From Giesbergeria sp. (GTDB lineage Bacteria; Pseudomonadota; Gammaproteobacteria; Burkholderiales; Burkholderiaceae_C), in NCBI RefSeq assembly GCF_028686475.1, contig NZ_JAQUCA010000005.1:160564-224563 (forward strand): a stretch of DNA of 64,000 nt. The letters run 5' to 3'. Shown here piece after piece: positions 48,515-51,567 of the stretch (positions are counted from its first letter, which is position 1; every line of letters starts with the position of its first letter). Both the position numbers and the translations under genes were made by a program. The notes beneath the pieces are model-generated. The model made no database searches. It was not told the DNA's origin and saw only the letters and a program-made list of their open reading frames with translations.

Positions 48515-49444
48515 TTAGGCGTAAGCGCTGAGGGCCTTACGCATTTTTTTCATGGCAGCGGCTTCAATTTGGCGGATGCGCTCGGCACTGACCCCATACA
48601 CCGCTGCCAACTCGTGCAGCGTCATGCCACCCGAGCCATCATCATTGACCTTGAGCCAGCGCTCTTCTACGATGCGACGACCCCGCTCGTCCAACGAAGC
48701 CAAGGCAGCCGCGATGCCATCGCTGGCCAATAAATCGCGCTGGTGCGACTCGAGCAGGGCGGTAGGCTCGTGGGTGGCATCGGCCAGGTAGGTGAGGGGG
48801 CCAAAGGCTTGTTCGCCATCATGGGATGGGGCCGGGTCTAGCAGCACATCGCCGCCGGACATGCGCGTTTCCATCTCAATCACTTCTTCGCGCTTGACGC
48901 GCAACTGACTGGCGACGTGGTCAATCTCTTGGTCGGACAGGCTGTTGCGGTGCGTGTCTTGGGCATCGGTTTTGAAACCTTGCTTCATGGAGCGCAGATT
49001 GAAAAACAATTTGCGCTGTGCTTTGGTGGTCGCCACCTTGACCATGCGCCAGTTTTTCAAAATATATTCGTGGATTTCGGCCTTAATCCAGTGCATGGCA
49101 TAGCTGACCAAGCGCACGCCTTGCTCCGGGTCAAAGCGCTTGACGGCTTTCATCAGGCCGATGTTGCCTTCTTGGATTAAATCGCCATGCGGCAGGCCAT
49201 AACCCAAGTATTGGCGCGAAATAGAAATCACCAACCGCAGATGCGACATCACCAAGCGCCCCGCTGCCTCGACATCGTTATCCTCACGCAGGCGGCGCGC
49301 ATAGCTTTGCTCTTCTTCGGGCGTGAGCATGGGCAGGCGGTTGGCCGCCGAGATGTAGGCATCCAGATTGCCCAGCGATGGCACCACGGCCCAAGGATTG
49401 GCAGATGCCAAAGCCGCCGATGCAGATCCAGAGGTAAATGTCAT
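48515..49444 (-). CDS. rpoH: RNA polymerase sigma-32 (heat shock) factor
   Basis: 309 residues, ATG at 49444. Region 1.2 starts NLDAYISAANRLPMLTPEEE; region 2 has HLRLVISISRQYLGYGLPHGDLIQEGN and the RpoH box FNLRSMKQGFKT follows. The C-terminal HTH is LHELAAVYGVSAERIRQIEAAAMKKMR. It directs heat-shock gene transcription. A CIRCE-type operator overlies its promoter, so HrcA repression is likely in addition to the usual RNA and stability control. Confidence 0.97.
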   Translation of the reverse strand: MTFTSGSASAALASANPWAVVPSLGNLDAYISAANRLPMLTPEEEQSYARRLREDNDVEAAGRLVMSHLRLVISISRQYLGYGLPHGDLIQEGNIGLMKAVKRFDPEQGVRLVSYAMHWIKAEIHEYILKNWRMVKVATTKAQRKLFFNLRSMKQGFKTDAQDTHRNSLSDQEIDHVASQLRVKREEVIEMETRMSGGDVLLDPAPSHDGEQAFGPLTYLADATHEPTALLESHQRDLLASDGIAAALASLDERGRRIVEERWLKVNDDGSGGMTLHELAAVYGVSAERIRQIEAAAMKKMRKALSAYA

Positions 49445-49472
49445 GGTGCAAAAATCCTTCTTCCAAGTCTTG

Positions 49473-49502
49473 ATATTAGCACTCTGTTGGAGAGAGTGCC
49501 AA
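49473..49502 (-). promoter_or_regulatory. CIRCE-type HrcA operator overlapping the rpoH promoter
   Basis: TTAGCACTC (49476-49484), nine bases, GAGTGCCAA (49494-49502): one mismatch from the CIRCE consensus TTAGCACTC-N9-GAGTGCTAA. It overlaps a sigma-70-like promoter on the minus strand, TTGGCA and TAATAT with an 18-bp spacer. It lies 31 bp upstream of the rpoH ATG. Confidence 0.88.
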
Positions 49503-49531
49503 ACTTGAAAGTTCCTGCCCCTACAAGAAAA

Positions 49532-50674
49532 TTAGGATAGCAAGGCTTGGGCAAATTCGCGCGCGTTGAAGGTTTGCAGGTCTTCGAGTTTTTCACCGAC
49601 ACCAATGAAATACACCGGCACCGGGCGCTCTTGGGCGATGGCCGCCAGCACGCCGCCTTTGGCCGTGCCGTCCAACTTGGTAACGACAAGGCCGGTCAAT
49701 TGCAAGGCATCGTCAAAGGAACGCACTTGGGCCAAAGCGTTTTGGCCGGTGTTGCCATCAATCACCAGCAGCACCTCGTGCGGGGCGCTGCCGTCGGCTT
49801 TGGTGACCACGCGCTTGATTTTTTTCAGCTCTTCCATCAGGTGCAATTGTGTGGGCAGGCGGCCTGCGGTGTCCACCAAGACCACGTCTTTGCCGCGCGC
49901 TTTGCCTGCCGTCACCGCATCGAAACTAACGGCTGCCGGGTCGCCGCCTTCTTGGCTGACAATTTCTACCACATTGCGGTCGGCCCAGACCCCCAATTGC
50001 TCACGCGCGGCGGCGCGGAAGGTGTCGGCCGCTGCCAGCAGCACCGAGGCACCTTCTAGGGCCAAATGCTTGGTCAATTTGCCGATAGAGGTGGTTTTGC
50101 CCGCGCCATTCACACCCGCCACCATGATGACGGTGGGCGTATGCTCGCCAATCACCAGCGGTTTTTCTAGCGGCGTAAGCAAGTCGGTCAGGGCATCGGC
50201 CAACAAGGCTTTCACGGCCGCCGGGTCAGTGGTTTTGGTTTCTTTGACGCGGCGCTTGAGGTCGTCTAACAGCCATTGGGTGGCTTTGACACCGGTGTCG
50301 GCCAGCAGCAAGGCTTCTTCTAATTCTTCATACAGGGCATCGTCGATTTTGGTGCCGGTAAACACGGTGGCAATGCTGCTGCCGGTTTTACGCAAGCCCG
50401 CCTTGAGCTTGTCCATCCAGCCTTGGCGCTCGGGCTTGGCACTGGGTTCGGGGGCAGATGTGGCGGCGGCCACTGGCACTGCGCTGGCCTCTGGGTTGGG
50501 CGCAATGGCTAGGGCAGCGCTGGCTTTGTTGGCAAACGGGTTACGCAACCAACTGCGTTTGGCTTCTGTGGCCTCGGCAGCAGGGGCAGTTGGGGCAGCG
50601 GTAGGCGCGGCAGCGGCCTCAGAGGGGGGCACTACAACGGGTGCTGGGGGCTTTTTTTTGAAAAAACTGAACAT
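49532..50674 (-). CDS. ftsY: signal recognition particle receptor FtsY
   Basis: 380 residues. The N-terminal Ala/Pro-rich segment is of low complexity. The NG domain (about 95-380) has the P-loop GVNGAGKTTSIGKLTKHL, DTAGRLPTQLHLMEEL, TKLDGTAKGG and the C-terminal GVGEKLEDLQTF. The GTPase docks SRP-ribosome complexes at the membrane. It diverges from nothing nearby but is head-to-tail with rpoH, separated by the CIRCE region. Confidence 0.96.
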   Translation of the reverse strand: MFSFFKKKPPAPVVVPPSEAAAAPTAAPTAPAAEATEAKRSWLRNPFANKASAALAIAPNPEASAVPVAAATSAPEPSAKPERQGWMDKLKAGLRKTGSSIATVFTGTKIDDALYEELEEALLLADTGVKATQWLLDDLKRRVKETKTTDPAAVKALLADALTDLLTPLEKPLVIGEHTPTVIMVAGVNGAGKTTSIGKLTKHLALEGASVLLAAADTFRAAAREQLGVWADRNVVEIVSQEGGDPAAVSFDAVTAGKARGKDVVLVDTAGRLPTQLHLMEELKKIKRVVTKADGSAPHEVLLVIDGNTGQNALAQVRSFDDALQLTGLVVTKLDGTAKGGVLAAIAQERPVPVYFIGVGEKLEDLQTFNAREFAQALLS

Positions 50675-50776: not shown

Positions 50777-51289
50777 TTATTTTGGAAAAGACGAGAGGGC
50801 TTGCACAGTGGCCAAGGGCAAAAACAGGGTCAGATTCGCATGGGGTAATCGAATAAACCCGTGGTGCTGGTAAAAATGGGCTGCGGTCGTATCTTTGGCA
50901 TCCACCAGCAAGGCGTAAGAGGCAATTTCTGCACGCGCGGCCCGCTCTAAGGCATCGGCCAGCAGCGCACTGCCCAAACCTTGGCCCTCAAAAGCGCAGT
51001 CAATCGCCAAACGCCCCATTCGTACCGCAGGTACCGTGGGATAGCGGGGCAACTTTTTGCCCATAGCAGGGGGCAAATCCGACAGCAACACGCTGGCAGC
51101 AGCCAAAGTGTAATAACCTGCAATGCACTGCTCTTGCGACAAAGCCACAAAACAAGCGGCAACCCGGCGGCGTATGTCTTGGCTCACTTGCTCGCGCAAA
51201 TAACGGTTCAAAGGCTCAGAACGGCTGTGGAATGATGTGCGATCATGTGCCGCCTGCAGTGCCAACAATTGAAATGGGGCAACGCTCAT
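50777..51289 (-). CDS. GNAT-family toxin, TacT/AtaT-like
   Basis: 170 residues. The acetyltransferase core has VRMGRLAIDCAFEGQGLGSALLADAL, the acetyl-CoA loop, and the pattern SRSEPLNRYLREQVSQDIRRRVAACFV typical of toxins that acetylate aminoacyl-tRNA. Tyr in YTLAAASV is conserved. Its ATG overlaps the stop of the DUF1778 antitoxin gene (ATGA), the standard order antitoxin then toxin. Target tRNA unknown. Confidence 0.9.
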   Translation of the reverse strand: MSVAPFQLLALQAAHDRTSFHSRSEPLNRYLREQVSQDIRRRVAACFVALSQEQCIAGYYTLAAASVLLSDLPPAMGKKLPRYPTVPAVRMGRLAIDCAFEGQGLGSALLADALERAARAEIASYALLVDAKDTTAAHFYQHHGFIRLPHANLTLFLPLATVQALSSFPK

Positions 51290-51567
51290 GGCGTGCCCAA
51301 AAGTTTTTTCCGCCGAACAAAAGCCCGCTGCAGCGCAGGCGTCGGCTCAGGAGGGGACAACAGCGCCTGTGCAAAGCACTCTTGGTCTTCCAAAGAAAAC
51401 CGCATCACTTCGGCTTGCTCAATAGCACGCTGGGCGGCTTCTTGCACGGCACTGATGACAAAATCGGTCATGGTACGGCCCTGCAATTCTGATGCCCGTT
51501 TGAGCATGGTGTGTAGCTGGGTGCTGATTCTGGCTTCAAGACGGGCAGTTGCTGCGGTAGCGGGCAT
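51286..51567 (-). CDS. DUF1778 family antitoxin (TacA/AtaR-like)
   Basis: 93 residues. ATARLEARISTQLHTMLKRASELQGRTMTDFVISAVQEAAQRAI is the ribbon-helix-helix N-terminus of DUF1778 antitoxins. The C-terminal tail (FAQALLSPPEPTPALQRAF) wraps the toxin. It probably autorepresses from the palindrome at 51595-51615. Confidence 0.92.
   Translation of the reverse strand: MPATAATARLEARISTQLHTMLKRASELQGRTMTDFVISAVQEAAQRAIEQAEVMRFSLEDQECFAQALLSPPEPTPALQRAFVRRKKLLGTP

Follow-up and report, generated by a model that had tools for sequence, protein, structure and literature searches.

Introduction

Control of rpoH, the gene for σ32, is best known from E. coli, where control by σE forms part of it. In the Giesbergeria genome studied here, a CIRCE, the predicted operator of HrcA, stands in front of rpoH, and the question is which promoter this operator covers and whether HrcA acts there on σ32 synthesis. 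The question was addressed in a window of 64,000 nucleotides (the whole stretch of DNA analysed), in the complete genome, and in related genomes.

A CIRCE operator in front of rpoH

The window was scanned for the CIRCE consensus TTAGCACTC-N9-GAGTGCTAA. A single match at three or fewer mismatches was found in the 64 kb, in front of rpoH (Table 1). It departs from the consensus at one base, as a preliminary description of this DNA had said of the 9-9-9 inverted repeat seen there, and none of 100 shuffled sequences contained a match. On the rpoH strand, the 27-bp element reads TTGGCACTC-TCTCCAACA-GAGTGCTAA, and its last base lies 31 nt before the rpoH ATG (49444). A chance occurrence was dismissed on the strength of the shuffles and of the conservation of the element in the order. 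In the whole genome (3.39 Mb in 65 contigs), CIRCE occurs at two places at three or fewer mismatches, before groES (no mismatch) and before rpoH (one mismatch). Since the reversed pattern also gives two places at this threshold, the number of places in the genome does not by itself exceed chance; the case for CIRCE at rpoH is carried by the closeness of the match, its placement, and its conservation.

Table 1. Features of the rpoH region (window coordinates).
Feature	Coordinates	Strand	Basis or remark
rpoH (σ32), 309 aa	48515..49444	-	TIGR02392, 390 bits, cut-off 323
Likely ribosome-binding sequence, AAGAAGGA	49455..49462	-	Read from sequence
Predicted σ70 −10, TAATAT preceded by TG	49473..49478	-	Scan; TGNTANNAT conserved
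CIRCE, predicted HrcA operator	49476..49502	-	One mismatch to consensus; 106/118 order genomes
Predicted σE −10, TCCAA, within the CIRCE spacer	49487..49491	-	17 nt from −35
Predicted σ70 −35, TTGGCA, the left CIRCE end	49497..49502	-	TTGGCA-N18-TAATAT, 9 of 12
Predicted σE −35, GGAACTT, 6 nt before CIRCE	49509..49515	-	Motif; conserved in the order
ftsY, 3' end 87 nt before rpoH, same strand	49532..50674	-	TIGR00064, 326 bits, cut-off 261

Two predicted promoters share bases with the operator

The preliminary description placed the operator on the −35 and −10 elements of a predicted rpoH promoter, and the scan bears this out. TTGGCA-N18-TAATAT combines a σ70-type −35 element with an extended −10 element at a workable, though long, spacing, and is one of two promoter-like sites in the interval 49300–49700, compared with 0.2 in shuffled sequences. 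The right CIRCE arm supplies the first bases of the TAATAT hexamer and the three bases after it supply the rest, and the range 49473–49502 given earlier for the operator exceeds CIRCE in that it also takes in this hexamer. In relatives, TTGGCA...TAATAT is conserved as TGCTAANAT, and TGNTANNAT, which runs across the right arm and the next three bases, was found at 144 of 167 rpoH sites versus none of 16 groES sites.

σE promoters carry a GGAACTT −35 element and a TCNNA −10 element 16–17 nt apart. The sequence GGAACTT-N17-TCCAA, on the rpoH strand, agrees with this motif; its spacing of 17 nt compares with 16 nt in most of the family. The genome encodes an E. coli-type RpoE (TIGR02939, 249 bits, cut-off 236), which matches the solved σE structures 1or7 and 2h27; GGAACTT was not seen in the 500 nt before the rpoE gene, and no second σE target came to light in this genome. 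Across 102 rpoH sites of the order, a GAAC core or AAACTT lies 3–10 nt before CIRCE in 77, versus 2, 8, and 6 sites in windows of equal width farther out. A complete σE −35/−10 pair is present at 124 of 168 sites (a set that counts two genomes twice, L002 = L042 and L005 = L072), compared with a mean of 4.7 and a maximum of 10 when the upstream DNA was shuffled 50 times; the two elements are 16 nt apart in 99 pairs, 17 nt apart in 24, and 15 nt apart in one. Rarity of the motif in the genome was dropped as evidence: GGAACTT-N15-18-TCNAA occurs at three places versus six for the backward pattern, and is not rarer than chance allows.

Among the CIRCE-bearing genomes of the order, the σE element was found in 78 of 100 with rpoE versus one of six in which rpoE was not found (p = 0.004, uncorrected for kinship); the figure of 78 leaves out L114, where a chance match lies 33 nt from the start of CIRCE (79 otherwise), and G072 was entered as rpoE-bearing although its match is partial and does not reach the curated cut-off. 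The σE input to rpoH is not universal, since 47 of 167 non-redundant rpoH sites (the 168 sites with the duplicates dropped, five later sites added, and near-copies removed) have no σE −35 element within 12 nt of CIRCE. CIRCE together with TGCTAA-N-AT, and with no σE-type promoter nearby, is found in seven members of the named set: Rubrivivax, Rhizobacter, Janthinobacterium, Rugamonas, Polynucleobacter, an Alcaligenaceae, and a Bordetella MAG.

The predicted σE promoter slides along the operator

The distance from the σE −35 element to CIRCE differs by lineage, and is 5–6, 7, or 9–10 nt. With CIRCE positions counted from 0, all 19 sites with a −35 element at 5–6 nt have TC at position 11 (versus four of 148 others), all 11 with one at 7 nt have it at position 9 (versus 54 of 156 others), and 77 of the 88 with one at 9–10 nt have TCNNA at position 7 (versus 13 of 79 others). 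In the 9–10 nt register, the −10 element consists of the TC that closes the left CIRCE arm and of spacer bases. Because the −10 element follows the −35 element in each register, the spacing between them is held at 16–17 nt while the promoter slides along CIRCE. At offsets below 9, 31 of 32 promoters are complete, compared with a mean of 5.5 and a maximum of 14 when −35 elements and operators were re-paired at random in 10,000 trials. In a few lineages (Trinickia, L167, and Pandoraea, L166), the σE promoter lies farther out, and its −10 element is directly before CIRCE; in this respect these loci differ from the window, where the element is inside the operator.

This coupling of registers is the strongest evidence for the predicted σE promoter; kinship inflates the figures, and the three registers agree. 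The possibility that the spacer pattern is part of HrcA recognition was dismissed, as the pattern is absent from the 16 groES CIRCE sites and its position moves with the −35 element. The arrangement is also a plain example of a promoter and an operator that have bases in common but shift relative to one another.

CIRCE at rpoH is kept and lost together with hrcA

The genome encodes HrcA (334 aa; PF01628, 225 bits, E = 1.6e-66 in a profile search), so that the absence of hrcA, which the preliminary description had named as fatal to its reading, does not apply. No CIRCE at three or fewer mismatches was found at hrcA itself. CIRCE is present in 58 of 60 genomes, this one included, and at exactly two places in 41. 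In a sample of 120 genomes of the order, RpoH was found in 118, and CIRCE (four or fewer mismatches) precedes rpoH in 106 of these 118. HrcA was found in 109 of the 120 in a separate census, which includes G119, where it is a 154-aa remnant with a stop. When this remnant is counted as absent, hrcA and the rpoH CIRCE agree in all 118 genomes, 106 having both and 12 neither (Fisher's p = 1.2e-16, ignoring kinship).

The 12 genomes without intact hrcA span seven families, and in three of these families other genomes have both hrcA and the rpoH CIRCE. CIRCE at three or fewer mismatches was found nowhere in these 12, so the groES CIRCE has been lost there as well; six hrcA-bearing kin have two CIRCE each. 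In one genome without hrcA (G069), the rpoH CIRCE has decayed to five mismatches while GGAACTT-N16-TCATA is intact. CIRCE at rpoH has gone from each of the 12 genomes that lack an intact hrcA, and all 106 that have one retain it, which indicates that the element is under selection through HrcA. The proposal that σ32 is under HrcA repression is in this way well supported, with binding of HrcA as a prediction. The locus is not the isolated clear instance that it was first taken for: CIRCE at rpoH is the rule in the order, and is frequent in the class.

Another hrcA-less locus, L133 (G148), has TGAACTT-N16-TCTTA and, where its kin have CIRCE, a shortened repeat, GGCACT...AGTGCC, which is likely a decayed CIRCE.

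The same operator is combined with a different promoter at groES

From this genome and its relatives, 32 CIRCE loci were kept, 16 before groES and 16 before rpoH. The groESL operator of this genome (L034) is a perfect CIRCE 93 nt before groES, and is expected to be served by the same HrcA as the one at rpoH. Its surroundings differ. The groES CIRCE follows a σ32-like promoter, CTTGAA...TTATCA (CTTGAAA...CCCTTATCA before the operator, CAACA after it), and lacks both a σE −35 element and TAANAT. A σ32-like promoter (CTTGAAA and a CCCCAT-like −10 before CIRCE) was seen at groES sites and not at rpoH sites, and a σE-type −35 element (GAAC or AAACTT) at none of the 16 groES sites. Since the flanking elements differ between the two places, one operator is combined with different promoters at groES and rpoH.

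A model for HrcA control of rpoH and its alternatives

We consider it probable that HrcA gates a shared σE/σ70 promoter of rpoH, in which CIRCE has bases in common with both GGAACTT-N17-TCCAA and TTGGCA-N18-TAATAT. The elements, their overlap, the presence of hrcA and rpoE, the co-occurrence with hrcA, and the coupled sliding of the −35 and −10 elements are all read directly from the sequences. Because CIRCE shares bases with both promoters, bound HrcA would likely exclude σE as well as σ70 polymerase, and would keep σ32 synthesis low. The HrcA of Bacillus needs chaperone help from GroEL, and its activity follows free GroEL. If HrcA behaves here as in Bacillus, misfolded proteins that occupy GroEL would leave HrcA unassisted, and it would leave CIRCE. 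The freed rpoH would then be transcribed at a basal level by σ70, with a further rise whenever envelope stress had released σE; σ32 would raise groESL, whose own CIRCE would open simultaneously; and GroEL, once recovered, would reactivate HrcA, so that rpoH and groESL would both be shut again. HrcA would in effect be a GroEL-sensing brake on these two operons. Transcripts from either predicted promoter would start within the right arm or beyond it, so CIRCE at rpoH should act as DNA rather than as an RNA hairpin. The earlier statement that one heat-shock circuit controls the other is well supported for the HrcA link by the co-occurrence, but it omits the σE-type promoter, whose −10 element lies inside the operator.

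HrcA might instead, in the simpler model of the preliminary description, repress a σ70 promoter of rpoH, with GGAACTT and TCNAA being incidental or part of HrcA recognition. The high conservation of TGNTANNAT, which is present at 144 of all 167 sites and at 38 of the 47 without a σE −35 element, favours such an arrangement, as does the fact that CIRCE without a σE −35 element is common in several lineages. We nevertheless judge it unlikely at this locus, since the GGAACTT/TCNAA pattern is missing from the groES operators, since the −10 element changes its CIRCE position together with the −35 element, and since GAACTT-N15-17-TC precedes rpoH at 23 of 29 loci that have no CIRCE (40 shuffles: mean 0.5, maximum 2).

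Two further explanations appear very improbable to us. The σE promoter may be real and CIRCE unused for repression here, or rpoH may rise after heat only via translation and stability of σ32, as in E. coli, where post-transcriptional control of σ32 is well known and provides a precedent; the loss of CIRCE in 12 of 12 genomes without intact hrcA and its retention in 106 of 106 with it speak against an idle operator. The rpoH transcript might also come from ftsY or from farther upstream, with CIRCE acting as a roadblock or being inert. Read-through from ftsY into rpoH is possible, as ftsY ends a short distance upstream on the same strand and a scan of the intergenic DNA found no terminator-like site between the two genes; against this as the main source of transcript stand two promoter-like elements across the operator that are conserved over the order.

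If HrcA does gate the shared promoter, the load on GroEL, sensed by HrcA, envelope stress, relayed by σE, and basal σ70 transcription would converge on 43 bp before rpoH, and would do so in many beta- and gammaproteobacteria. This would explain why HrcA is retained in bacteria that already have σ32; the HrcA regulon would comprise essentially two operons, groESL and rpoH; and the evolution of the E. coli rpoH circuit would become testable.

Relation to known systems

The E. coli σE promoter of rpoH, which we take to be P3, is similar: in strain LR-33 it reads TTGAACTT-N16-TCTGA (GAACTT-N16-TCTGA), and belongs to the same spacing class. Unlike the locus studied here, the LR-33 upstream sequence examined has no CIRCE, and the search for HrcA gave no match in the control genome of E. 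coli.

A CIRCE before rpoH was predicted in 2004 for Geobacter sulfurreducens, where groESL is the other constant target (PMC545781); that species belongs to another class, and the accessible part of the report mentions no σE element across CIRCE. Closer to the window, in the same order, the rpoH promoter of a Burkholderia is regulated by RpoE and heat-inducible (Vanaporn 2008, as stated in the review PMC5994319), so that σE drives rpoH there too; HrcA is not mentioned for this promoter in the accessible part of the review, and in the related Trinickia locus L167 the σE −10 element precedes CIRCE. In a Variovorax, rpoH, hrcA, and groESL go up together according to PMC5911999, which is compatible with HrcA gating rpoH. 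No publication was found on a CIRCE superimposed on a σE promoter of rpoH, in a search that reached few subscription papers, and HrcA at such a promoter goes unmentioned in the accessible portions of PMC545781, PMC5994319, PMC3135505, PMC3989490, PMC5911999, PMC12617022, and PMC6085468. CIRCE at rpoH and σE control of rpoH have thus been published separately, and their overlap may be new.

Distribution and possible origin

CIRCE (four or fewer mismatches) is present at 51 of 80 named RpoH loci. An RpoH tree (81 rows, the window among them) requires five changes to account for its distribution, and loci whose register puts the −10 element at the arm end fall on either side of the midpoint split; the named rows nearest the window are Acidovorax, Diaphorobacter, and Variovorax. 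A composite pattern for the class (GGAACTT, 9 nt, and CIRCE with T-N-A in the spacer, three or fewer mismatches) matched 103 of 276 class genomes, every one of them from a family outside the order sample, and the backward pattern matched none. Of the first 40 of 106 matches, which were placed, 37 lie before rpoH and three before neither rpoH nor groES. Among 150 family genomes, 58 contain the composite in the family's own register, and none contains the backward pattern; the Giesbergeria genome is outside the 58 because its −35 element is one base farther off. Twenty of the first 24 family matches were placed, all 20 before rpoH (G028, G126, and G084, whose rpoH loci were already in the set, and G035 were omitted).

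These data allow a tentative scenario, which we regard as quite possible, in which an HrcA-gated σE promoter is ancestral for rpoH of the Gammaproteobacteria, the betas among them, and the E. coli σE promoter is what remained after loss of hrcA and the operator. Transcription of the σ32 gene would then have begun as GroEL-sensing, with σE as a second input.

Other observations at rpoH loci

One genome (G082) has two rpoH genes (L232 and L233), both preceded by CIRCE and a σE-type −35 element. At L114 (G099) and L234 (G141) of family f18, the CIRCE spacer starts with GGGAACC and no σE-type −35 element lies upstream; these loci may represent an additional register whose −35 element lies inside the operator. 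In several genomes of the window's own genus (L017, L018, L020, L022, L024, L027, L028, and L029), the left CIRCE arm, and only this arm, carries TTAGCAGTC at rpoH. A different, recurrent change, GCAGTC...GACTGC, is found in one or both arms of some gammaproteobacterial CIRCE sites at rpoH (L206, L214, G534, and G455; Xanthomonas pisi L206 and G534 are examples), and may mark a shifted HrcA specificity. Next to ftsY, on the minus strand of the window (50777–51567), a gene for a GNAT acetyltransferase (170 aa) overlaps one for a TacA-like antitoxin (93 aa; PF08681, E = 1.6e-27), and the two make up a predicted TacAT-type toxin-antitoxin pair.
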